Below, in pieces: positions 115 to 13,894 of a stretch of DNA of 44,073 nt. Position numbers and translations under genes: made by a program. Source of the DNA: a virus. The notes under the pieces are model-generated. The model worked only from the letters and a program-made list of their open reading frames with translations, did not search any database and was not told the DNA's origin. The first letter of the stretch is position 1, and every line of letters begins with the position of its first letter. The DNA lies in the IMG/VR virus record IMGVR_UViG_3300033145_000258, positions 1-44,073 of that record; one strand, 5' to 3'.

Positions 115-306
115 CCAGTTCCTTAATGTCTCAAGATGTGCTTTTGTACTTGGGCCACCGCCAACCACAGCACAAGGGCTATATCTTGTGCGACTCCATT
201 CTACGCTCGGATACCCACTCGATGCGATAATATTCTTTCTTATGTGCTTTGGCTTTGTATTACATCGAGAATGTAAGGTTATGAGCTGTGCATTTTTGGC
301 TGCCAT
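1..306 (-). CDS. MptE-like (DUF115) protein, N-terminal part, continues across the join
   Basis: This is the first 102 codons of a gene that continues at 43438-44073 on the circular molecule; the full product is 275 residues. I place the start at the ATG complementary to 304-306, preceded by an AGGGAGAT ribosome site and overlapping the end of the upstream paralogue by 28 bases. The start is within the frame but cannot be read from the right-hand piece alone. The protein has a Rossmann-like segment AVVGGGPSTKAHLETLR followed by DIFAINDTAGYLS, as in MptE-like/DUF115 proteins, a family that includes archaeal pterin pyrophosphokinases and the flagellin-modifying Maf proteins. Its close paralogue is the gene at 279-1100. 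The substrate is unknown. Confidence 0.85.
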   Translation of the reverse strand, partial: MAAKNAQLITLHSRCNTKPKHIRKNIIASSGYPSVEWSRTRYSPCAVVGGGPSTKAHLETLRNWDGDIFAINDTAGYLSQNGIASYMFAIDGSPIPYKSGLL

Positions 307-1100
307 ATCTCCCTGCCTGACGAGCTATATTTTGTGTTCCATATTTTACAACCTTTTTTGGCGTACTTCTTTTTAAAGTCCTTGGCGATTGCTACCACTT
401 CCCATGTATCAGGGTTTTCAATCATTGCTTTCATTAATCCCCCTGAAGCATTTACTAAAAAAGGTGAGTAGTCCTTTATCTGGTTTATTAGAAACTCCGC
501 CTGCATATAAAGAGCAGCGTTTGTAATATAATCGATTCCATTTACCCGAACAATCATCATGTTGCTGTTGGCTACCTTTTGGTTCCCGCTTACATGAGTA
601 ACGTCATAAAAAGAAGCGTCCATGCCAAAAAACACTACTGCCATATATCCGGCCCTTAAAAATAAATATCCGGCCCTTGAAGCTGCTGTCGGCCCACCGC
701 CGACTCCTGTTCCGTCAGAGTCTTCCATCATTTCCCATGTACGGGTATCCTTGTAGATAAATTGAACGGGGTGTACTCTTGTAGCGAACAATGCGCCCTT
801 AATAAGATGCCCTTGATGATAAGGAACATCTGAACAATCCATTGAGAAAACATAAGAACTAACCCCGTTTCGAGACAAATAACCGGCCGTGTCGTTTATT
901 GCAAATATATCCCCAGGCCATTTCCTAAGTATTTCAAGAGATCGTTCCGTGCTTATTCCCCCGCCCACCACTGCACAGGGCTTGTGCGTTCCAATCCCCC
1001 AAGGTATTTTCGGGTATTCCTTAGACGCAACAATGTATCTCTTTATCTTTCTTAGCCCCGTGTTACAAACTGGCTGTATGTTTAACCGCGCTTTTATCAT
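279..1100 (-). CDS. MptE-like (DUF115) protein, first copy
   Basis: The product is 273 residues. An N-terminal nucleotide-binding-like segment reads CAVVGGGISTERSLEILR and is followed by GDIFAINDTAGYL. A mid-protein GTGVGGGPTAASRAG loop and a VVFFGMDASF strand are also shared with the second copy. DUF115/MptE-like domains occur in 6-hydroxymethylpterin diphosphokinases and in Maf-type glycosyl transfer proteins. Which chemistry applies here cannot be told from sequence. The frame extends to a GTG at 1106, but the ATG at 1100 forms an ATGA overlap with the stop of the radical SAM gene, so translational coupling favours it. More than half of aligned residues match the neighbouring copy by eye, indicating tandem duplication. 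Confidence 0.85.
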   Translation of the reverse strand: MIKARLNIQPVCNTGLRKIKRYIVASKEYPKIPWGIGTHKPCAVVGGGISTERSLEILRKWPGDIFAINDTAGYLSRNGVSSYVFSMDCSDVPYHQGHLIKGALFATRVHPVQFIYKDTRTWEMMEDSDGTGVGGGPTAASRAGYLFLRAGYMAVVFFGMDASFYDVTHVSGNQKVANSNMMIVRVNGIDYITNAALYMQAEFLINQIKDYSPFLVNASGGLMKAMIENPDTWEVVAIAKDFKKKYAKKGCKIWNTKYSSSGREIWQPKMHSS

Positions 1101-2629
1101 GTACACACCAACTTGTTTATCTGCCCTCTGGCGGCATTGCGTTTATTCTCAATATCGGGTCTGCCTTTTTTACTGACAAGGGCGCTCCCAATCCGCTTTT
1201 CAAGATTAGGAAAGTACCTATATATAAATCGAGACAATTTGCAAGCTGCCATAATTGCCTTTTGCTTCCACACTTGATTTGGGTACATCGTTTGTAAATT
1301 ATGCCTGCCAACTTCATAAGAAACTTCATACATCTTCTCCACGAATTCCGGGGTGTATTTAAAGAAGTATTCTTCTTGGATATAGGTGTCATCATACATA
1401 AACCTTTGGGACAGCGTGCTGACCGCATAGGGGTTCTCAGCATTGTTATAAAGCGATACTCCGCAGTCCTGATACCTTGGGTCAAGCCAATAGTCTTTAA
1501 ACCCGTATTCGTCCACATAGTCCTTATAAATTTTAGTTCCCGGGAAAGGCACTATCGAACCAGACCCATTAAACATGTGTGTTACATCCCATAATTCATA
1601 AATCATTTTAAGCGAATTGTCTAAACTCTCAACAGTTTCCCAAGGGAACCCGAACATCAGATTAACCCCTACTTTTAAACCAGCAGCGTGCGCTATTTTA
1701 GGGGCAGCCAAATTTTGCTTTAGAGTAGTTCCTTTACAGGTTTTTTTGAGTGTCTCAGGGTCACCGCTCTCAATGCCAAACATAACCATATAGCATCCGG
1801 CATCCTTCATCATGTTAGCCATTAAGGGTGTCATCATGTCAGCCCTTGTCCATGCTTGCCACGTTATCCTTGGAGTTATCTTTTTAATCCCTTTGCAAAA
1901 TTCAGCAACGTGCCTTTTGCTCATTGTGAAACAATCATCTGCCACGACAAAGTTGGTTATACCGTATTTATCCACACGCTTTTGAACGTCAGCCATGATT
2001 GAATCTATGGGGTTATAAGTACCTCTTTGCCCAAACACCCTTGAGTCGCAGAAGGTGCATCTTCCGGGGCAACCACGACTTGTATAAATACGATGAATAC
2101 CTTTGAGTAGCCCATCACCATCAAGCCTGAATCGTTCTATATCAAACCCACTAAAGTCAGGGTCGGGAAGTGTAGATAAGTCTTTAATCCTTGGCCTTTT
2201 TGGGTTGCGGATAATCGCACCATCCCGATAAGTAATGCCTAAAATGTCTTTCTTTGGTTTGCCGTCTAATATTTCTTGCAGGGTTTCTTCGCCTTCGTTT
2301 CTAACAACAATATCTGCTCCATGCCGGATGGCTTCTTTGTCACAGGTCGTAACGTGAGTTCCGCCAACAATTACATGGAAACCTTCTAATTTTAGTCTTT
2401 TAATAAGGGCATATGCCTTTAAAACCTGCATTGTGAGCATACTAATACCTACAATATCGGGCTTATATTCTCTTGCAACATCCATAAAGTAGTCATTATC
2501 AAGGTGGCGCTTAAACGTATTCTCCTCGACTCTAACATCATAGCCATTCTTTTTAAACACAGCCGTAATCATTGCAAGAGAATGTGGCATTTCCGACATA
2601 GCCGCTGGATAGATTAGGAGTGCCTTCAT
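1097..2629 (-). CDS. B12-binding-domain radical SAM enzyme
   Basis: The product is 510 residues. An N-terminal cobalamin-binding-like Rossmann domain (about residues 1-130, with VGISMLTMQVL and VIVGGTHVTT segments) is followed by a radical SAM barrel. The barrel has the CPGRCTFC motif (CxxxCxxC) for the 4Fe-4S cluster near residue 190 and a MFGIESGDPETLKK segment, typical of the BchE/B12-binding radical SAM family. Such enzymes catalyse methylation or rearrangement at unreactive carbons. The start overlaps the previous gene's stop as ATGA, and its own stop overlaps the next gene the same way, so the three are one translational unit. This is an unusual cargo within a phage head-tail operon. 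The substrate is unknown. Confidence 0.93.
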   Translation of the reverse strand: MKALLIYPAAMSEMPHSLAMITAVFKKNGYDVRVEENTFKRHLDNDYFMDVAREYKPDIVGISMLTMQVLKAYALIKRLKLEGFHVIVGGTHVTTCDKEAIRHGADIVVRNEGEETLQEILDGKPKKDILGITYRDGAIIRNPKRPRIKDLSTLPDPDFSGFDIERFRLDGDGLLKGIHRIYTSRGCPGRCTFCDSRVFGQRGTYNPIDSIMADVQKRVDKYGITNFVVADDCFTMSKRHVAEFCKGIKKITPRITWQAWTRADMMTPLMANMMKDAGCYMVMFGIESGDPETLKKTCKGTTLKQNLAAPKIAHAAGLKVGVNLMFGFPWETVESLDNSLKMIYELWDVTHMFNGSGSIVPFPGTKIYKDYVDEYGFKDYWLDPRYQDCGVSLYNNAENPYAVSTLSQRFMYDDTYIQEEYFFKYTPEFVEKMYEVSYEVGRHNLQTMYPNQVWKQKAIMAACKLSRFIYRYFPNLEKRIGSALVSKKGRPDIENKRNAARGQINKLVCT

Positions 2630-3534
2630 TTAATATCCGCCTTGTTTGAGGTTATTTGTCCCACCCTACGATTTGGGTTGCTCGCATAAAGGAGTACATT
2701 GGAATCAAAGTTTGTCTGGTCGCAATGTTGGCAGATATAGCCATCAAAGTTCTTTTCCCTGTGCGCCAGCCTTAACTTTTTGTAAGGTTCTCCCTTATAG
2801 ATTTCCTCAATAGTCTGGTTTTTAATATCCCCCACCTTAACTTGTTTATGGATATCCCAACAACAAGGGCTTACTGTTCCGTCAGCATGAATATACATCG
2901 GGCCGTTCTCCGGTCTTCCGCAAGTTACCTGTACTTCTGGATTTACCTCACGATAGACACGATTTTCTACCCAATTATGAGGCTTCCACACGAAAACTTC
3001 GTCTAACACAGGCTCCCACCTATCAAGCCATTGACCTTTTTCATGCCGGTTCTGGTCTGTTTCAACGAATAAACCAATGGTTCGGGGTCGGCGGTCAGTT
3101 GCGTACTCAAGAAAACCCATGATATTCTCCATTGAACGGTCGAATTTTATTCTGCCCCGATGGAAAGCCTCATAGGTCTTCTTGGTTGCCCCGTAAATAC
3201 TGAGCTTCAGAATGTCTATATATTTAATAACGTCGTCCCATGTATCAGGGGTCATGTGAAAAGCTGTTGTTGAAATAAAAACCTCCGCCTTGGGTAATTC
3301 CTTGCGAACATAATCAAGGCGCTCAAAGAACTGTTTATCAAGAAAACAATCCCCGAACCCGCAGGTGTCAACAGATTCAAGTTCATATTGTGCTGCATCG
3401 TCTATAATCTTCTCAAAGAGTTCCATGTCCATGCGCTGAGGCTTCTGCTTAAACTTTTCCCTCGGACATATTACGCAATGAGCATCACAAATGTTTACCG
3501 TTTCGATAACGAGCTGTTTGTTCAATAACTCCAT
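2626..3534 (-). CDS. Radical SAM/SPASM-type enzyme
   Basis: The product is 302 residues. The cluster motif CDAHCVICPR (CxxxCxxC) lies near residue 17, and a SPASM-like C-terminus carries CGRP, SPCCWD and CQHC cysteines for auxiliary clusters. The frame is open to 3627, but the ATG at 3534 has a perfect GGAGGGACA ribosome site and places the cluster motif at the normal distance from the N-terminus, so I use it. SPASM enzymes often modify peptides or sugars. Together with the following B12 radical SAM and two MptE-like proteins it forms a four-gene cassette between the head genes and the tail factors. Its target is not known. Confidence 0.92.
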   Translation of the reverse strand: MELLNKQLVIETVNICDAHCVICPREKFKQKPQRMDMELFEKIIDDAAQYELESVDTCGFGDCFLDKQFFERLDYVRKELPKAEVFISTTAFHMTPDTWDDVIKYIDILKLSIYGATKKTYEAFHRGRIKFDRSMENIMGFLEYATDRRPRTIGLFVETDQNRHEKGQWLDRWEPVLDEVFVWKPHNWVENRVYREVNPEVQVTCGRPENGPMYIHADGTVSPCCWDIHKQVKVGDIKNQTIEEIYKGEPYKKLRLAHREKNFDGYICQHCDQTNFDSNVLLYASNPNRRVGQITSNKADIK

Positions 3535-3554
3535 TGTCCCTCCAAATTGTATGT

Positions 3555-3578
3555 GGGGTGGAGAGTCACCCCCACCCC
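3555..3578 (-). terminator. Intercistronic hairpin before radical SAM genes
   Basis: A perfect 7-bp stem, GGGGTGG pairing with CCACCCC around a 10-base loop, lies between the stop of the head protein gene and the ribosome site of the radical SAM gene. No T-run follows, so it may act as a partial terminator or an mRNA processing or stability element rather than a full stop. Confidence 0.45.
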
Positions 3579-3583
3579 TAAGT

Positions 3584-4228
3584 TTAACTTGCTGCCATAA
3601 GACCACATTCCTCAAGCCTGCCCTCAACCTCTAACACCCTGATCTGCAAATTATAAATTACCTGCAAAAAAGACTGCGCTTCGCCAAGGGTTACAAATCC
3701 AAAGCCTGTCGCTGTAACTAATGCCCCTACTGCATAATCCGCCGTAGATGCTGCCGTGCAGGTAATGGTCGTAAGTGCGGTTGTCAATGCTGCTGGTTGA
3801 TCTACGGGTGTAGTACCATAGAAGCCAACCAATTCTGTCGAAGCGTACCCAAGACAATGACCATCATCATTCCCATCGTCCAGATAATCATAAGTCTGAG
3901 CTACGCTCACCGCAGTCCCGCCATCTACAACTCCACAAGCCTCTAAAGCTGTGGCAATCTCACCTATCCGTGACTGAAGGTTTCCTATCACCCCAAGCAC
4001 GCTTGCCCCTTCCTGAGCAGTTGTAAATGCATACCCACTCTCTGCAACAAGAATAGCGATTGCATAATCAGCCGTTGCGTGGGCGGAAGCGGTGATGGTT
4101 GTTAAGTTTGCCGTAGTAACCGCAGCCTGGTCACACGGGGTCGTACCCCAAAAGCCTATCAGGTCGGTTGATGCATGACCGAATATGCTTCCGACATCGT
4201 CGTTCTTACTTAAATATTGTACTGCCAT
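3584..4228 (-). CDS. Two-repeat head or decoration-type protein
   Basis: The product is 214 residues made of two copies of a roughly 100-residue unit. Each copy has a GFWGTTP or GFYGTTP sequence near the N-terminal end, an ATADYA or STADYA segment, and a coiled tail ending in EACG or EECG. The adjacent gene at 4238-4549 encodes one copy of the same unit. The GFxGTTP motif is common in small phage proteins encoded beside the major coat protein and thought to be head fibre or decoration components. The exact role is inferred from position. A strong AGGAGGTTAAT ribosome site precedes the ATG. Confidence 0.75.
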   Translation of the reverse strand: MAVQYLSKNDDVGSIFGHASTDLIGFWGTTPCDQAAVTTANLTTITASAHATADYAIAILVAESGYAFTTAQEGASVLGVIGNLQSRIGEIATALEACGVVDGGTAVSVAQTYDYLDDGNDDGHCLGYASTELVGFYGTTPVDQPAALTTALTTITCTAASTADYAVGALVTATGFGFVTLGEAQSFLQVIYNLQIRVLEVEGRLEECGLMAAS

Positions 4229-4237
4229 ATTAACCTC

Positions 4238-4549
4238 CTAATTTGCTGCGATAAGCCCACATTCCTCAAGCCTTGCTTCAATTTCCGCCAAACGAGCCTG
4301 AAGATTTTGAACAACTATCAACGTGCTTTGCGCTTCATCTCCATTCGCAAACCCATATCCAGATGTCTGGACTGGAGCCGCTACTGCATAATCAGCCGTA
4401 GTTGCTGCGGTAAATGTAAGAGTCGTGGACTGTGCCGTTAGTGCGGCTGGTTGATCTACCGGAGTAGTCCCCCAGAAACCAAGCAAGGACGCTGACGTTT
4501 GTCCAAGAATCGTCCCGCTCGGTGTTTTTCTATCTAAATAATCTGTCAT
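4238..4549 (-). CDS. Single-repeat head or decoration-type protein
   Basis: The product is 103 residues with one copy of the unit found twice in the next gene: TSASLLGFWGTTPVDQ, then TTADYAV, then a predicted helical tail ending EARLEECGLIAAN. It directly follows the coat gene, separated by a GAAA-capped hairpin, and has an AAAGGAGGG ribosome site. Expansion from one to two units in the neighbouring gene looks like internal duplication. A capsid surface or head fibre role is inferred from gene order only. Confidence 0.75.
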   Translation of the reverse strand: MTDYLDRKTPSGTILGQTSASLLGFWGTTPVDQPAALTAQSTTLTFTAATTADYAVAAPVQTSGYGFANGDEAQSTLIVVQNLQARLAEIEARLEECGLIAAN

Positions 4550-4595: not shown

Positions 4596-5819
4596 TTAGT
4601 CTCCTAAAATCCGTGTTGCCCATTCAGGCCGTATAGTCTTATACCCGAAAAGCACATCAATTCTGCAAGGGAACTTATCATTAACGATGTCGTAATCCCT
4701 CACAATCTTGAGAGAAATACCGTCATAGACCTCCCTTGCCGCAAAATCCACACCCTGCGGCATTTCAAGGTCTGCCGTTACAAGAGTAAAAGCATCTTTA
4801 TGGTATGCCATGTGCTGATCGTATGCAGTCGAAGCAACCCCATTTGAACCAGAAGTATCAACCACAACAATCGCTGAGTTTTCTGTCCAGTCTGCACAAT
4901 ATACATTCTGCCTTGCCCCACTCTTGTAAAGCGTGGGAGTGACCGGAAGTGCGTCTGTAGCATCACAGGTAAACGCAGTTGTAAGAGCAAACTGCTGTAA
5001 GTGTGAATACGCTACTTTTGTTTCAGGATTAACTGCATAGACACCAGCAACAGTAATAATGTCACCCTTTACAAAGGTTTCATCAGACGTCATAATCGTG
5101 GTAAGAGTTGTGTCTTCGTTAGCAACCACACTCAGATCACATTGCCCTGCGGTTGTTCTTGTTCCGCATGTATGAGAAACAATCATTTCAGACTCATAGA
5201 ACTTAAAGCCTGACATATAACCCATAACCCCTGTTTCGTATTGTTTAGAAATCTCAGAAACAGGATTAAAAAAGGCTTTTCCATCATTTACAACGGTGTT
5301 CATACCAAGAGACTCCATCAAGCAAATCCTGTCCCCCATAGGAGCCATGCCTTTACTTAGTTTTGCCCTTGCCTTTTGAACGTCAGCTATTACAGGAGCC
5401 GTCCCAATGGTGGAATAAACTATATTGTAAATATCCTTGTAGGAAGCTGTAATAACAATCTTGTCAACTTCTGCCGCAAGACGAGTCATTGCCGGAGTTA
5501 AAATTCTGTCAGCAAAGTCGTCCATAGAAAGGGTTAATTCGGTTGAACTAAAGTTAATATCAACGCCTCTCTGGGTTGCGACTGTCAAGGTCTGGGTGTT
5601 CTCTTCGACATCCTGCGTATCCATTACAGCGCCAGACCGTACTGTAAACTGATTAGGGTTCCTGATTAACAGAGAACCACCATTTTTCGCACCTGATCTC
5701 GCAAAACGGTCATCGTACTGCTTATTTATGGTTTTGCAAAATACAAGTTTATTGTGGAGAATCGAGAGAGCCTTCCTCGTTATATCTCCGTCACTTAAGG
5801 TTTTAATTGTATTGGACAT
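4596..5819 (-). CDS. Major capsid protein, P22 coat-like
   Basis: The product is 407 residues and forms the procapsid shell with the scaffold encoded just upstream. The N-terminal third (KALSILHNKLVFCKTINKQ, then RNPNQFTVRSG and a DINFSSTELTLSMDDF segment) is typical of the P22 gp5/coat protein family, and the length matches that family. The gene follows the portal-scaffold order expected for P22-like phages. The ribosome site TAAGGAGATATA sits just below a GUAA-capped hairpin, and a second capped hairpin follows the gene, which suggests control of message level for this highly expressed product. Confidence 0.92.
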   Translation of the reverse strand: MSNTIKTLSDGDITRKALSILHNKLVFCKTINKQYDDRFARSGAKNGGSLLIRNPNQFTVRSGAVMDTQDVEENTQTLTVATQRGVDINFSSTELTLSMDDFADRILTPAMTRLAAEVDKIVITASYKDIYNIVYSTIGTAPVIADVQKARAKLSKGMAPMGDRICLMESLGMNTVVNDGKAFFNPVSEISKQYETGVMGYMSGFKFYESEMIVSHTCGTRTTAGQCDLSVVANEDTTLTTIMTSDETFVKGDIITVAGVYAVNPETKVAYSHLQQFALTTAFTCDATDALPVTPTLYKSGARQNVYCADWTENSAIVVVDTSGSNGVASTAYDQHMAYHKDAFTLVTADLEMPQGVDFAAREVYDGISLKIVRDYDIVNDKFPCRIDVLFGYKTIRPEWATRILGD

Positions 5820-5821
5820 TA

Positions 5822-5840
5822 TATCTCCTTACAGGAGGTT
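5822..5840 (-). promoter_or_regulatory. GUAA tetraloop hairpin before coat gene
   Basis: On the minus strand AGGAGG pairs with CCTCCT around a GTAA (GNRA) loop. It lies at the scaffold stop, just above the coat ribosome site TAAGGAGATATA. The AGGAGG arm is itself Shine-Dalgarno-like but is buried in the stem. Confidence 0.5.
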
Positions 5841-6615
5841 ACCCTCCTTCAAGCTTAGTTTTTATTTTTTCCAACTCTTTTCCCTTTTCCCAAGCCATCC
5901 ATTCTTCTGTTGACATCTTGCTTGGGTCTGCCTCTGGTGCGCCTGTGCTACCAACCGGAGATATTGGGTTTGGTGCGGTTGTAGTAGTTTTAGTCTTTTG
6001 CGCTAATAGAAGTTTTGTTTCTAATTTAGCGATTTCGTAAACCTGTCTTTCTGGTGATAAGTCTTTGATTGTATCAGCTATGTCGCTGTTTTTAGCGATA
6101 TGATATGCGACCATCGGGCCGTTGTCGATCTCGAATAGCGTGTTTCTCATTGCGTCTGTAAAGACGGGCGTTTCAATAACTTTGTCAAAATCAGGGTGTT
6201 CTTTCCGTAACTCTGTTGCGTTCTTATTAAAGTTACTGGCAGACTCTTGCCTCCTTTTTCTTTGCGCCAAGGCAGACTGTTCAGAAACCATTTTGCTGTC
6301 ACGCCAATCAAACAAAGCGTCTTCATAAGCCTCTACGGTTTCATAGTTTTCCTGATTTGGTCGATTCGGGTCAGCTTGAGGAGCAACTGTTTTAATCGGT
6401 GCAGGCGGTTCATTTGCCTGATTCTTCCAGTATTCTACTTCTCTTTCTGACTCCCTGAACTTGTATGTAATTTCGTCAATGCGCGCTTGGGCGGTTTGCT
6501 TGGGCTTTGACTCTGCGCTTTCAGCAGTTTCCGGACTTTCTTCGGCCACTTCTTCAGCGGGTGTTTCTTCTGTTTCAATAATTTCCTCAGTTGTTTCGAT
6601 TGCTTCTTCTGCCAT
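5839..6615 (-). CDS. Scaffolding protein
   Basis: The product is 258 residues, very acidic at the N-terminus (runs of E and T with almost no aromatic residues) and rich in charged helix with little hydrophobic core. It has a basic-acidic C-terminus (KGKELEKIKTKLEGG), as in phage scaffolds whose helical C-terminal tail binds the coat. Position between portal and coat supports the call. An AAGGAGAGAAATC ribosome site precedes the ATG. Identification rests on composition and gene order more than on a sequence motif. Confidence 0.8.
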   Translation of the reverse strand: MAEEAIETTEEIIETEETPAEEVAEESPETAESAESKPKQTAQARIDEITYKFRESEREVEYWKNQANEPPAPIKTVAPQADPNRPNQENYETVEAYEDALFDWRDSKMVSEQSALAQRKRRQESASNFNKNATELRKEHPDFDKVIETPVFTDAMRNTLFEIDNGPMVAYHIAKNSDIADTIKDLSPERQVYEIAKLETKLLLAQKTKTTTTAPNPISPVGSTGAPEADPSKMSTEEWMAWEKGKELEKIKTKLEGG

Positions 6616-6663
6616 GATTTCTCTCCTTGCGCCCGAAGACGATTTGCGGCTAATGCCGAGTAT

Positions 6664-6707
6664 AAAAAAAGGCGGGCAAACCTCGTAATAAGATTCGTAC
6701 CCGCCTT
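6664..6707 (-). terminator. Rho-independent terminator after sigma-like gene
   Basis: On the minus strand an 8-bp stem, AAGGCGGG with CCCGCCTT, spans a 23-base loop and is followed directly by a T-run. It lies downstream of the sigma-like gene and upstream of the scaffold gene, so it would separate the packaging segment from scaffold and coat. No clear promoter is visible before the scaffold gene, so read-through or antitermination is probably needed. Confidence 0.75.
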
Positions 6708-6741: not shown

Positions 6742-7242
6742 TTATTTAATTGCACTTCTAATTTCTTTCAGGGTCTTCCAGCCGAGTCCCTTAATTTTGA
6801 ACATCTCTCTATCTGATTTTGCTTTAATCTGGCTTTTGTTCTTTATGCCAGCAAGTCTTAAACAGCGATAAGCCCTATAAGAAATTTGTAGCATTTCTAT
6901 ACTATTCTTATCTAATTTAGACTGGCGCTCACTATTTCTCCTATACGCTACAGGTATAAACCTCTCTAATAATTTTTTCTTGGGAGGGTGTTTTAATTGC
7001 CGAAAAGCTTTCGCCTCTATCTGCCTGACTCTTTCTTGTGTTATCCCAAAAGTAGCCGCTATGTCTTGTAAGGTTAAGCTGAAACCATTGCGTAAAATTA
7101 GCACAATGCCGCCACGCCCCGTAAGCGTGCTTAAAATTGAGATTAATTCTTTGCGGCTCTCCCTTGTACCTTCTACTCTCTCATTTTCAGGTAGTCCAAA
7201 TATTTCACGAATTATATCGAATAAATCATACGCTTTTTTCAT
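6742..7242 (-). CDS. Sigma-70 region 4 / RNA polymerase alpha-CTD-like fusion regulator
   Basis: The product is 166 residues. Residues about 47-85 form a sigma-70 region 4 helix-turn-helix (LTLQDIAATFGITQERVRQIE), the part that contacts the -35 box. Residues about 120-166 (SYRAYRCLRLAGIKNKSQI, then MFKIKGLGWKTLKEI) closely resemble the alpha-subunit C-terminal domain, which binds upstream promoter DNA. The arginine equivalent to alpha R265 and the GLG-K loop are kept. Sigma regions 2 and 3 are absent, so it cannot be a complete sigma factor; a promoter-specific co-activator or appropriator is plausible. It has a GGAGGTG ribosome site, lies between portal and scaffold, and is followed by a terminator. 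Activation of late genes is inferred. Confidence 0.8.
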   Translation of the reverse strand: MKKAYDLFDIIREIFGLPENERVEGTRESRKELISILSTLTGRGGIVLILRNGFSLTLQDIAATFGITQERVRQIEAKAFRQLKHPPKKKLLERFIPVAYRRNSERQSKLDKNSIEMLQISYRAYRCLRLAGIKNKSQIKAKSDREMFKIKGLGWKTLKEIRSAIK

Positions 7243-7254
7243 GCTTCACCTCCG

Positions 7255-7386
7255 TTATTCGGATAGTTTAATTGATTCGGTCTTTTTAACTACAACAATT
7301 CTTCCAGCTTCTTTCTTTATAACTATCTCACCATACTGCAAACCCTCAATTAACGCAAATAATTTTCTATATTCTTCTTCTTTCAT
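7255..7386 (-). CDS. DUF2292/YezD-like small protein
   Basis: The product is 43 residues: a short helix, then LIEGLQYGEIVIKKEAGRI and a VVVKKTESIKL strand. This is the compact pattern of the DUF2292 (YezD) family, whose function is unknown. Its ATG overlaps the portal stop as ATGA, so it is probably translated by coupling to portal. Eleven bases separate it from the ATG of the sigma-like gene, and the sigma gene's GGAGGTG ribosome site lies in that gap. Confidence 0.7.
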   Translation of the reverse strand: MKEEEYRKLFALIEGLQYGEIVIKKEAGRIVVVKKTESIKLSE

Positions 7387-9119
7387 TTTTTCTTATTCTG
7401 TTCCTGCTGTGCCATTTGTTCCATTTGTTGCTTTATTTCAGCGTACACTTCGGTAGCCCCTGGGAAGTCTGCGTACTTGAATATAAACGGGGCTAATATC
7501 GGTGCGACAGTGGGTGCGTACTGCATCGCTTGTATAAGCGTTTCCACCATTTCCTGCCGTTTAGACCCATATGAAGCTCCTACTGAAGCGATTACATCAT
7601 ATTTACCAACTGTGAGATCGTTTTGTGTTTCTATTCCGTTTGCACCCAAGACCGGAGTGTTGACATCTACCACCTGTTCCTCTCCGTTTTCGCCCATTAT
7701 TCTTAAAGCACGTCTTGTGTCATAGATTTTCGGGATTAAATCAACAATCTGCCTTGCTCCGTACACGATTGCTTTTAAGGAATTACTAACGAAGGTATAG
7801 GTTCCCTTGTCGGCCTGATTAATTCTCGCCGTGATAGCTTTCCCGCTTCTCTCATTTGAAGCCTGCCCTTTTGATGCTTCATACCGGCCAAGGTGATCTT
7901 CTATGTCAAAGGCTGTGGTCTGCATCATTGAGATAATCGCACCTGGGATTTCAGACTGCCGTTCTCTTTCGGGTTTATTAAGCCCGGCTATCGCATTATA
8001 CCGAATATACGGTCTGTTTGTCCTCTGAGCTTCTTCCCATTCAGCTTCAAACCCTTTGATTTGTCTGTGGTCAACCATGTATGGAATTTTCGGGGAAAGA
8101 GCTACATTTTCGGTAGCGGCCGTAGCCCAATAATTGTACATCTGTTGCGAACCTTTTGCGCCCCTTGTAAGCGATAGGTAGTATTTCTTGCCTTCTGCTA
8201 CCACTTCATCACCAAACACAGGTATGATTGGTATATACTTGCCTGGCCATTCTGATTCTTCTAAAATCTCGGCCCCGTTCATCTTAATCCACTTGATTTT
8301 GTAGGTATCGACTGTTCTTTCACGAATAATCATGCCGCCCTGGGATTGGACAAGATCAGGAGTGATCTCCTTGCTTAATGTGAATATCTCTCCTGTGCTA
8401 AGTTGGACTATTTTCTTTTGAACAGGCTCTTTATAAAAATACTCTGCAATTCTTAACTGATCGTTCTGTATCCATTCGCCAAAAAGCCTGCGCCTTGAAC
8501 CTTCAAAGTTTGTGCTTTCCGCTTTTGGGTACTTTTTCTTAAACTCCTTCATGTCCATCAATTCTTCAACGAAACAATACCGTGCATCTTCTAATTCAAA
8601 CTCCGTTGCGGCAGGGTCAAAATGGACTGAAACAGGATTGATAATTCTTTTAATGAACAAATCCTGATCGAAATTATTATCATCTGCGTATTTTGTGATT
8701 ATTCTGAAATAACCAACCGAACATGAGATTGCGTGCATATATGCAGTGTCGTATGCTATCCCGGCGTCACTTAGGTATTCAATCTGTCTTATGAGTCCGT
8801 TGTATAATTCAGCCATGTTAACATCTGCTTTATTATCAACAGGAATAACCTTCATGCTTGGTCGGTTCTGTTGGAACTCGCCACGAAGCTGTCTTACAAA
8901 TTTCTGAAGTTTATTTACGGTTATGATAGGACGCCGGTCTTTCTCTCTTTCATTCCTGATTTCAAACGGCCATTGCCCTTCATCAACATCATAAACGAAC
9001 TTTAAATCGTTGGAAACTTCCTCGTAAATGTGCCGCCAACCATCGGTAGCGTATTTATAGCGGTCTTTTGCTAAGTTGAGAATTTTCTGCTCTCTTGTAA
9101 AACCTTTTTCCTCGCTCAT
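7383..9119 (-). CDS. Portal protein, P22-like
   Basis: The product is 578 residues and forms the dodecameric ring at the packaging vertex through which DNA enters and leaves. Segments typical of the P22-type portal family include RRPIITVNKLQKFVRQLRGE near residue 65, the RIINPVSVHFDPAATE strand and the SGKAITARINQADKGTYTF helix near residue 420. The length is close to the family, with a QQ- and K-rich tail. The frame is open to an ATG at 9131, but the ATG at 9119 overlaps the terminase stop as ATGA and is preferred. Gene order terminase-portal-scaffold-coat fits. Confidence 0.92.
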   Translation of the reverse strand: MSEEKGFTREQKILNLAKDRYKYATDGWRHIYEEVSNDLKFVYDVDEGQWPFEIRNEREKDRRPIITVNKLQKFVRQLRGEFQQNRPSMKVIPVDNKADVNMAELYNGLIRQIEYLSDAGIAYDTAYMHAISCSVGYFRIITKYADDNNFDQDLFIKRIINPVSVHFDPAATEFELEDARYCFVEELMDMKEFKKKYPKAESTNFEGSRRRLFGEWIQNDQLRIAEYFYKEPVQKKIVQLSTGEIFTLSKEITPDLVQSQGGMIIRERTVDTYKIKWIKMNGAEILEESEWPGKYIPIIPVFGDEVVAEGKKYYLSLTRGAKGSQQMYNYWATAATENVALSPKIPYMVDHRQIKGFEAEWEEAQRTNRPYIRYNAIAGLNKPERERQSEIPGAIISMMQTTAFDIEDHLGRYEASKGQASNERSGKAITARINQADKGTYTFVSNSLKAIVYGARQIVDLIPKIYDTRRALRIMGENGEEQVVDVNTPVLGANGIETQNDLTVGKYDVIASVGASYGSKRQEMVETLIQAMQYAPTVAPILAPFIFKYADFPGATEVYAEIKQQMEQMAQQEQNKKK

Positions 9120-11587
9120 GCGCCCATCCATGCTCCTGTTGCGTATGGTCTATTGTCCATCGGCAACGGATTAATTTGATATGCTTCGTATTTTGCTCCT
9201 ACTAACGTATATCTATAAGCGTTCTCACACATGTGATCGTTTTCTTTCGCCGGTTTACCGTTCTCGTCAAACACCCACCGTTGAACTTCGTAAAGAAACC
9301 TCTCGCAATCTTCAAAGATATAACAAGTCGGAAGTCCATTTACCCCTTTTAACCATGTCTGAAGATTCTTGACACCGCTGTCCTTGTCCTTTGAGGCAAC
9401 CTGAAGAGTAATGCCATGCGGTAAAAGCTTATCGCCTATGATTGAGAACGTGTCCCGCTGGTCTGTGCCAAGCCGATTTCGGATATACGCGACATCCCCC
9501 TTTGAAAGAGGATCGATAAATGCCTCTGTTATGTTCCAGCCTGCTTTTAATTTACGAATAATATCATCTGCAATTTCATCCCCTGAGATGTTCTTCCACG
9601 TTTCACCAACGCAATAATTAATGTCCTGCCGATTCACTGCCCAATACGAAACAGCCTGTGGGGTACTCAGGTGAAAATCAATCATAACCGTTACCGGCCA
9701 GTCTGTAGGTACGTCAAACCGCTTCACTACATGAATGTCCCTGTCAAACTCCTTCAGGACACGACCAACCAAGGATTTAAACATCCCAAACACCCTCGGA
9801 GGAACATCAGCAGGGTCAATATCTTTAATAAACTTCAAAATCTTTAGTTTGTAAATATCAGCATGAGCCATTACAGGGATTATGCCCTCTAAATACATTT
9901 CTGCGCCCCTGCCCTGATCGACTACAGGCTTGTTTTTCTCTTTATTCTCATACAACAGCAAATCAAAATACTTTTCTATCTGCGATTCGTCTAAGTGTTG
10001 GTTAAGAACAGCAACATCCCCGTTCACAAGGTCAGGATTATCGGTAATCTTTAAATTATCTACAATCCCTATGTCTTTTCTGCCGCTCAGCACAATATCA
10101 TCCAGTATCCATGCTTCCTTTATAGGGGTTAATGAGAGTAGCGTCTTGCCATTGTCAAGCAAAAGCCCACGACTCATGGCCTTATACTTTGCCTTGGGCG
10201 GCGGTTCATCCAATATAGCCCCCTGCGCCCTGAACGATTCAAATAAATCATCGTCCTGAGAGTATGACATTATTGTCAGGGTCGAAACATTGTCCCACTT
10301 TCCCGCCTGATCGCAAAACGTCCATAAAAAATCAACGCCCTGTTCGTTCTTTTTGGTCTTATACCACCCTTTAGGCGCCCACTTCTTTAACTCAGGAACA
10401 AGCGTCCTGCCAATGTGTAACTTCCAGTCTTCCCCAGTCAGAATTAAATTTACCGGCGGCTCAATCCCTAATGACGACTTCCGGTAATACTGCCCATGAA
10501 CTTCAATCGCTTCAGGATCGTCTTTATCAATGTAATCCCAAGGCTCAAAACCAATCAGCCAGGAAATTAAAATGTTCGTGACCAGACACGAATTATGATG
10601 GATTAACCCACCTGCAAAATAATTATGCCATTTATCCACCGTAAAATCATAAACTTCTTGACTTCCAAGTTTAATGGATGATATAATGTGGTTATTATCA
10701 ACCAACAAAGGAGAACAACATGAAGGCACAGTATCACGAGAATGAGGAGCGACTAAGGGATCTTGTTGAAAACCAGAAGATGCAACTCCACAAGGTAGCT
10801 GAAATCCTTGGGGTTCACTGGTCAACTGTAAACAACTGGTGCCGAAGGTTTGGGTTAAAAACTCAAAGAGTCGGCCCACGAACTGGCGTTGCCTGTAAAG
10901 GAGGTCGTTTTGTAGGGAAAGGAGGGTACGCTTATGTTTTTTTACCAGATCACCCAAACTGCAACAATAAGGGATATATGATCGAAAGCCGTGTGGTAAT
11001 GGAAAAAAAACTTGGTCGTCTTCTTGATAGGAAGGAAGTTGTCCACCACAAAAATCGCGATGTTTCTGATAATAGCCCGGGGAACCTTTCTCTTTTCCGT
11101 TCAAATGGAGCGCACCTTGCCCATGAATTGAAGGGGAAATGTCCGAACTGGACTGAGGATGGGAAGAAACGAATTTATGCAGGGATTCAAAAGAGCGCCA
11201 CCCTCCGTAAGTTAAAATCTTGTGATGATCAGCAGCATCAATTGTTTGACCGTCAGACATCGTAATCCTATAACACTTGTGAAGCCCATGTTTTTTAAAC
11301 GGAGCGTGGGCTTTCGCTATTACTTTTTTCTTTCCGTCCCATGCAAAAACATCAAACGGTTTTCCGATATCATGCAACCTGCCAACAGATACCTTTCCAT
11401 CGGGAGTGTCTATAAGTGTTTGATATGTAATGCATTTTCCTATCTTGTTGCTTGAGATAATCGCTGTTGTGTTTTTCTCCCGAATCTTTACTAAGGCGTC
11501 CTTCTGCCAGGGATAAGGCTTAAAAAAGAATATACCATTGTCCTTCTTAAACCTCTCAACCCTTTCTTCGGCAGTCTCTTTGCTCAT
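9116..11587 (-). CDS. Terminase large subunit interrupted by an intein
   Basis: The primary product is 823 residues. The mature packaging ATPase-nuclease would be 542 residues: residues 1-51 joined to 333-823. The Walker A motif SSNKIGKS is rebuilt only after removal of residues 52-332. The ATPase Walker B-like GAILDEPP follows, and the nuclease half shows VMIDFHLSTP and EAFIDP acidic residues. It powers DNA packaging and cuts the concatemer. The C-terminal end couples to portal by an ATGA overlap. Because the intein sits in the catalytic P-loop, packaging depends wholly on splicing. An antisense HNH gene occupies the centre of the intein. The ribosome site is modest (AAGTGAG). Confidence 0.93.
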   Translation of the reverse strand: MSKETAEERVERFKKDNGIFFFKPYPWQKDALVKIREKNTTAIISSNKIGKCITYQTLIDTPDGKVSVGRLHDIGKPFDVFAWDGKKKVIAKAHAPFKKHGLHKCYRITMSDGQTIDAADHHKILTYGGWRSFESLHKFVSSHPQSSSDISPSIHGQGALHLNGKEKGSPGYYQKHRDFCGGQLPSYQEDDQVFFPLPHGFRSYIPYCCSLGDLVKKHKRTLLSLQNDLLYRQRQFVGRLFEFLTQTFGTSCLQLTSEPQGFQLPCGVASSGFQQDPLVAPHSRDTVPSCCSPLLVDNNHIISSIKLGSQEVYDFTVDKWHNYFAGGLIHHNSCLVTNILISWLIGFEPWDYIDKDDPEAIEVHGQYYRKSSLGIEPPVNLILTGEDWKLHIGRTLVPELKKWAPKGWYKTKKNEQGVDFLWTFCDQAGKWDNVSTLTIMSYSQDDDLFESFRAQGAILDEPPPKAKYKAMSRGLLLDNGKTLLSLTPIKEAWILDDIVLSGRKDIGIVDNLKITDNPDLVNGDVAVLNQHLDESQIEKYFDLLLYENKEKNKPVVDQGRGAEMYLEGIIPVMAHADIYKLKILKFIKDIDPADVPPRVFGMFKSLVGRVLKEFDRDIHVVKRFDVPTDWPVTVMIDFHLSTPQAVSYWAVNRQDINYCVGETWKNISGDEIADDIIRKLKAGWNITEAFIDPLSKGDVAYIRNRLGTDQRDTFSIIGDKLLPHGITLQVASKDKDSGVKNLQTWLKGVNGLPTCYIFEDCERFLYEVQRWVFDENGKPAKENDHMCENAYRYTLVGAKYEAYQINPLPMDNRPYATGAWMGA
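10658..10687 (+). promoter_or_regulatory. Sigma-70 promoter for antisense HNH gene
   Basis: TTGACT at 10658-10663, an 18-base spacer and a perfect TATAAT at 10682-10687 lie 33 bases before the HNH start codon. On the opposite strand the same bases encode intein block F (around GSQEVYDF). The promoter would therefore be constrained by the splicing domain and would drive transcription against the terminase message. Confidence 0.75.
10720..11265 (+). CDS. HNH homing endonuclease encoded antisense inside the intein
   Basis: The product is 181 residues. An N-terminal helix-turn-helix (LHKVAEILGVHWSTVNNWCR, residues about 22-41) is followed by a classic HNH nuclease: GYMIESRVVMEKKLGRLL, then EVVHHKNRDVSDNSPGNLSL and a later HLAH. 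The ribosome site AAAGGAG is 7 bases before the ATG and a strong promoter lies upstream. The whole gene lies on the strand opposite the terminase intein. The last 20 or so codons overlap intein block B, and the start lies just before block F. A role in homing of the intein allele is expected from the family. Its orientation relative to the intein is very unusual. Confidence 0.92.
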   Translation: MKAQYHENEERLRDLVENQKMQLHKVAEILGVHWSTVNNWCRRFGLKTQRVGPRTGVACKGGRFVGKGGYAYVFLPDHPNCNNKGYMIESRVVMEKKLGRLLDRKEVVHHKNRDVSDNSPGNLSLFRSNGAHLAHELKGKCPNWTEDGKKRIYAGIQKSATLRKLKSCDDQQHQLFDRQTS

Positions 11588-13582: not shown

Positions 13583-13606
13583 AATACCTCTTGGTGGTTA
13601 TTCTAT

Positions 13607-13635
13607 ACCATATACCCAGATATAGTGCTTGTCAA
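13607..13635 (-). promoter_or_regulatory. Candidate minus-strand promoter
   Basis: On the minus strand there is a perfect TTGACA (13635-13630), a 17-base spacer and TATGGT (13612-13607), 25 bases before the first gene of the operon. The palindrome at 13645-13658 lies 10 bases upstream of the -35, a natural place for regulator binding. Confidence 0.65.
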
Positions 13636-13644
13636 GCTTTATTT

Positions 13645-13658
13645 TAGGAAAAATCCTA
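13645..13658. promoter_or_regulatory. Operator-like palindrome 1
   Basis: TAGGAAAAATCCTA has 5-base arms around AAAA. It shares the core TAGGxAAAAxCCTA with the palindrome at 13721-13738, so the two look like sites for one dimeric regulator. The regulator is not identified. Confidence 0.5.
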
Positions 13659-13720
13659 CACCTTAACGATTTGTAATTGTTGGATATTTGTGCAGGTGTA
13701 TGAAAAACCCACATAGTAAT

Positions 13721-13738
13721 TGTAGGGAAAACCCTACA
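13721..13738. promoter_or_regulatory. Operator-like palindrome 2
   Basis: TGTAGGGAAAACCCTACA has perfect 7-base arms around AAAA. Its centre lies about 78 bases from that of palindrome 1, with matched arm changes (GGA/TCC versus GGG/CCC) that preserve symmetry. Confidence 0.5.
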
Positions 13739-13894
13739 AATTAGATTATTTGTAAATCTGGTTATTTCGCTGAAAATTATTATTTGTTGTTATTTGTGAT
13801 ACTTACGAAATATTTGATTTGTTGGCATCTAACTTGCTTTGCTCTAAAAGCAGAAAACAAATTTAACTTTAACCAACAGCAGGGAGGGAGAAAC

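Follow-up and report, generated by a model that had tools for sequence, protein, structure and literature searches.

A phage protein that joins sigma region 4 to an alpha C-terminal domain, encoded between portal and scaffold genes

Introduction

Region 4 of a bacterial sigma factor and the C-terminal domain (CTD) of the RNA polymerase alpha subunit can be seen together on promoter DNA in PDB 3n97, which contains the E. coli alpha-CTD and region 4 of Taq sigma bound to UP/-35 DNA as two separate chains. The small phage T4 protein gp33 has been likened to sigma region 4 and mimics it at the beta flap (PMC2988020), MotA and AsiA provide a precedent for replacement of the -35 contact (PMC2988020, PMC2988021), and the phage modifies alpha R265, a residue important for UP-element use, thereby attacking that use (PMC2988021). 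The part of a jumbo-phage survey drawn on here (PMC7824862) describes gp33 orthologues and minimal sigma factors that have one helix-turn-helix, and no alpha-CTD fusion.

A phage protein that carries both modules of 3n97 on one chain is described here. It is encoded in the window, the whole 44,073-nucleotide stretch of viral DNA that was analysed, the ends of which share an identical 114 bases; the map can therefore be closed into a circle and is apparently complete. Like gp33, the protein is small, resembles sigma region 4 and is without region 2. Unlike gp33, which has a sliding-clamp tail and is not a reader of DNA sequence, the fusion retains residues that contact DNA and has an alpha-CTD at its C-terminus; this argues against membership in the gp33-type coactivators. 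It is filed here as a new variant among the phage sigma-4-type regulators, a known class. No published description of the sigma-4/alpha-CTD architecture was found in the literature searched, in agreement with the first-pass annotation, which held that such fusions are seldom discussed.

Domain composition and model of the fusion

The fusion gene (6742..7242, minus strand) is a single open reading frame for 166 amino acids, with an ATG start at 7242 and a good ribosome-binding site, GGAGGTG, at 7253-7247. Pfam assigns the sigma-70 region 4 domain (PF04545) to residues 37-85 (6988..7134, minus strand; 49.6 bits, E 2.7e-13) and the RNA polymerase alpha CTD (PF03118) to residues 105-165 (6748..6930, minus strand; 50.5 bits, E 1.7e-13), each at about twice its gathering cut-off of about 24 bits. 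NCBIfam agrees, with an RpoD-type and an RpoA-type half, and among solved structures, sequence comparison gives primary sigma factors as the best relatives of the first half and alpha CTDs as those of the second. Given that each half reaches an E-value near 1e-13 within a single frame, chance is excluded as an explanation. The open reading frame and its two-domain architecture, as proposed in the first-pass annotation, are thus confirmed at the level of sequence.

Alignment suggests that two polymerase tails are joined almost head to tail through a short flexible linker. The sigma half follows RpoD region 4 up to its natural C-terminal end, through '...KHPPKKKLLERFI', and lacks four residues in the loop that follows region 4.1; the alpha half begins in the linker just ahead of the CTD. 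In Pfam scans, no match to sigma region 2 (PF04542) was found either in the protein or anywhere else in the phage, so that the core-binding region 2 is missing as first described, and no alpha N-terminal dimerisation and assembly domain was found in the 166 residues.

The first-pass annotation would have been refuted had the C-terminal half proved to be a generic helix-hairpin-helix unrelated to alpha. This alternative was ruled out by a Pfam scan of that part: taken alone, the last 67 residues score 53.4 bits against RNA_pol_A_CTD and match none of the helix-hairpin-helix families. The scan is able to tell the two apart, given that a control, a small protein of similar outline from Bacillus phage vB_BpsM-61, matches HHH_5 better than RNA_pol_A_CTD. 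An AlphaFold model built from a two-sequence alignment has a mean pLDDT of 67, with about 90 over the C-terminal domain and a low-confidence linker. The modelled N-terminal part is closest to sigma region 4 and the C-terminal domain to RpoA CTDs (Z 10.7); RAD51-type helix-hairpin-helix N-terminal domains also match the latter at a Z of about 9, and therefore the fold match is not deciding evidence for its identity.

Contact surfaces of the two halves

The residue that corresponds to E. coli alpha R265 is R123 of the fusion, and the GLG-K loop is present as G152-L-G154-W-K156, with G296 and K298 kept; the key arginine and the loop are indeed retained, as had been claimed. The other UP-element DNA contacts of alpha are taken here to be N268, C269, G296, K298, S299 and E302. 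On this list, five of seven contacts are identical in the fusion (R265, C269, G296, K298, E302), N268 has become R, and S299 has changed conservatively to T. Degenerate phage copies from Marley1013 and BpsM-61 retain 2/7, as opposed to 5/7. The acidic determinant at 259-261, by which the alpha-CTD meets sigma region 4, reads MLQ in the fusion.

For the sigma half, contact positions were taken from published residue lists for E. coli sigma-70 (PMC4943231), and eight RpoD proteins and seven sigma-4-only proteins from phages or metagenome-assembled genomes (MAGs) served as the comparison panel. The fusion keeps 10 of 16 contacts to the -35 element, compared to 9-15 for the RpoD proteins, 11 for RpoH and 11-16 for the sigma-4-only proteins. 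R584, one of these contacts, is Q, which may alter the -35 specificity. The core-binding (beta-flap) positions are kept at 2/6, with 3-6 for the RpoD proteins and 3-5 for the sigma-4-only proteins, a comparison that uses a short list; the four lost positions fall within a short stretch where the alignment has some gaps, and true region 4s of the panel drop to 3/6 as well. L598 and R562 are kept, and E555, F563, I565 and G577 are changed or deleted. Taken together, the residues are no more than suggestive of a protein with DNA-facing sides that look alive on both halves and a sigma core-binding side that looks worn.

Genomic setting

On the minus strand, the order is terL, portal, a 43-residue DUF2292-like open reading frame, the fusion, scaffold, coat, cargo and tail genes. 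Profile matches identify a P22-like portal (7383..9131), which is at most 39% identical to its relatives in named phages, and a P22-like coat protein (4596..5819), and the scaffolding protein (5839..6615) matches phrog_8865. The DUF2292-like frame, the upstream neighbour of the fusion, overlaps the portal stop (7255..7386, minus strand) and scores 20.1 bits against a cut-off of 22. Directly behind the fusion gene, ahead of scaffold, lies a stem, GGCGGG...CCCGCC, with a run of seven T after it (6664..6705, minus strand), in the manner of an intrinsic terminator.

Relatives L024-L033 have portals that are 60-67% identical and coats that are about 60% identical, and have no fusion at the portal-scaffold position; no alpha-CTD was found in their records, many of which are fragments. 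The DUF2292-like frame recurs in L027, L029 and L030. L029 also has the GGAGGTG junction behind it, but an unrelated 58-residue open reading frame comes next. Judged by these gene orders, the gap between portal and scaffold is a slot that takes variable small genes. The fusion gene has a G+C content of 37.5%, as opposed to 42-44% for its neighbours, and L025, L029 and L046 have terminators in the corresponding position, with other stems. The variable slot, the absence from relatives, the lower G+C and the differing terminators are why the fusion reads as an accessory, moron-like cassette gene that would not be essential to the late programme. A conserved late regulator of this phage group was considered and ruled out by the absence of the fusion from relatives, many of them fragments. 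The place in the head operon had been singled out for comment; the gene order is as described, but the point is weakened, as the slot is variable and the relatives do without the fusion.

The terminator bears on the proposal that the fusion is a purely local autoregulator, acting on its own cassette or on scaffold and coat expression, through DNA or through the terminator behind the gene. A strong intrinsic terminator directly after the gene and ahead of the scaffold counts in its favour, but L025, L029 and L046 are without the fusion and have terminators of other sequence there, so that the terminator does not depend on the protein. The local role is rated very unlikely.

Several features of the surrounding region were also observed. 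A short hairpin (CGYC-NNNN-GRCG or similar; 6623-6641, minus strand) directly precedes the ribosome-binding site of the scaffold gene and is present in most relatives (L025-L030, L032, L039 and L040), with changes in both stem and loop. The cargo after the coat gene (279-3627, minus strand) comprises two radical SAM proteins, one B12-binding and one of the SPASM type, together with an MptE-like protein, and relatives have cytidylyltransferase-like and radical SAM genes at this position. Post-coat proteins at 3584-4549 (minus strand) are made of repeated units (D2, D4 and D6 repeats), with longer versions in L026, L027 and L031.

Possible function

No polymerase gene was seen among the phage proteins scanned, and the phage therefore most likely uses the host polymerase. 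The only region 4 above cut-off in the phage is that of the fusion. The protein probably binds promoter DNA and either interferes with host transcription or redirects it. The favoured form of this reading, with a probability of about 45%, is a two-module promoter-DNA binder that would compete with or modulate the host polymerase, in preference to a true sigma substitute. In short, the protein would be a small phage transcription factor in which a primary-type sigma region 4 is joined directly to an alpha-CTD, such that one chain could read a bipartite DNA site, a -35-like hexamer and adjoining AT-rich DNA. Occupancy of such a site would follow the arrangement solved for separate chains in 3n97. 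The fusion would then compete with or modulate the host holoenzyme at such promoters during head-gene expression, and would form no holoenzyme itself, given that region 2 is absent and the positions by which region 4 holds core are mostly changed. Bacterial transcription factors usually bind as dimers, a point counted against the favoured explanation, in which the reader would be a monomer of two domains.

Bridging of both promoter elements, as suggested in the first-pass annotation, is plausible in light of the 3n97 precedent and the two mostly kept DNA-facing surfaces. Its further suggestion, that host polymerase could be diverted to late genes, is not supported: only two of six core positions are kept, the gene is placed within the head operon instead of preceding it, and the same kind of head is made by relatives that have no fusion. 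The same observations weigh on a related proposal, sigma appropriation, in which region 4 of the fusion would replace that of host sigma on the beta flap while its alpha-CTD binds upstream DNA and host sigma region 2 stays in place, thereby sending polymerase to phage genes. T4 offers precedents in the gp33 flap mimic and in the -35 replacement by MotA/AsiA (PMC2988020, PMC2988021), L598 and R562 are kept, and the gene is in the late region. E555, F563, I565 and G577 are nevertheless altered or deleted, the gene does not precede the late operon, close relatives with the same head genes have no fusion, and the acidic alpha determinant at 259-261 reads MLQ. Sigma appropriation is thus considered rather unlikely, and blocking or modulation is preferred over redirection of a holoenzyme because the core contacts look worn and region 2 is missing.

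Alternatively, the main role could be that of a decoy, with the fusion binding strong, rRNA-type UP/-35 promoters of the host and lowering host transcription late in infection. DNA-contact residues kept on both halves, the accessory distribution of the gene and the attack of T4 on UP-element use through alpha R265 (PMC2988021) are all consistent with this shut-off, which nonetheless overlaps in part with the favoured competitor or modulator; as the main role it is thought improbable.

Sigma-70-like sites are no more numerous in the phage than in shuffled sequence. Three perfect TTGACA hexamers with AT-rich upstream DNA, at 13635, 20489 and 21767 on the minus strand, are candidate sites only. 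Rfam gave no match. A divergent intergenic region at 13583-13783 contains inverted repeats that resemble an operator (TGTAGGGTTTTCCCTACA, with a second, partial copy), and a promoter-like TTGACA site in it points toward the terL operon.

A broader proposal, held to be doubtful, is that several unrelated mobile elements use a single-chain sigma-4/alpha-CTD/UP/-35 assembly to capture host promoters or to hand host polymerase to a class of phage promoters through upstream DNA alone, with no reader of the -10 element. If true, this would be a distinct way of commandeering host transcription, a strategy to be placed beside phage sigma factors, sigma-4 mimics and alpha-modifying enzymes. If the modules cooperate on one chain, the protein could serve as a tool to learn how far upstream contacts alone steer or block bacterial RNA polymerase.

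Related fusions and survey

Three further contigs, from mobile elements or phages, encode fusions of this type (L051, L104 and L105). The L051 protein, of 236 residues, is encoded in a Lachnospiraceae MAG, on a contig where its neighbours are a DnaB-like helicase and an integrase. It likewise has region 4 and then an alpha-CTD on one chain (67 and 83 bits), is without region 2 and is 42% identical to the phage fusion over aligned columns; it differs in its long coiled-coil-like linker, in keeping 4/6 core positions and in its location outside a head operon. Gut phage proteins from MT837876 (L104, 303 residues) and MT835636 (L105, 332 residues) also have both domains above Pfam cut-offs, but with an added N-terminal HTH_17, a longer coiled-coil-like linker and a more divergent region 4, in the order HTH_17, region 4, coiled-coil-like stretch and alpha-CTD. 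The two parts have therefore met in at least two layouts, joined directly in the phage and with a coiled-coil linker and extra helix-turn-helix elsewhere, which suggests that the combination is useful. Other members may be able to bind core, as 4/6 core positions are retained in P0002, a related fusion.

Phage proteins with only one of the two domains are commoner. Proteins with region 4 alone (L002-L022), found on viral contigs, are without region 2 like the fusion, but have no alpha-CTD, and several have other N-terminal helix-turn-helix-like parts. Gene 5 of Bacillus phage Goe8 and gp51 of Mycobacterium phage Marley1013 have RNA_pol_A_CTD above the Pfam cut-off and no sigma region 4.

Among 398 Bacillota genomes, only L051 covers both domains of a two-row profile, at a depth where rpoA alone reaches 1e-25 and more divergent fusions could hide beneath. 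Among 398 Pseudomonadota genomes, the same type of profile gave no fusion at 1e-20, in a survey without a positive control. Searches with the phage fusion, the alpha-CTD alone, the L051 protein and the two-row alignment gave no further viral fusions. A degenerate two-domain DNA pattern finds the window and nothing in the collection, a weak negative given that it allowed one linker range and one Gln codon. The architecture thus looks recurrent but rare, within a survey of limited sensitivity for divergent fusions. Matches labelled as C. difficile plasmids and some labelled as phages (MT837602, MT835508) were rejected as ordinary bacterial rpoA beside ribosomal protein genes. Lachnospiraceae alpha-CTDs also occur in small helix-turn-helix proteins and in AAA-ATPase proteins; in L116, L117, L118 and L119, of about 600-740 residues, the alpha-CTD is fused to an AAA-ATPase-like part, and that of L116 has 7/7 DNA contacts.

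An antisense HNH gene in the terminase intein

TerL (9116-11587, minus strand) carries an intein in the GK|SC ATP-binding loop, and a 181-residue HNH_3 endonuclease frame is antisense within the intein (10720-11265, plus strand). This frame has its own ribosome-binding site and a strong promoter-like site, TTGACT-18-TATAAT, at 10658-10687. HNH insertions described in 2025 are out-of-frame on the same strand, unlike this antisense arrangement (PMC11855218). The antisense gene may be more unusual than the sigma-4/alpha-CTD fusion. Among its relatives in viral contigs, 23 of the 29 tested are also antisense within an open frame of 520-930 codons, and many of these host frames have the intein C-terminal block ...HHN(S/C)GK.
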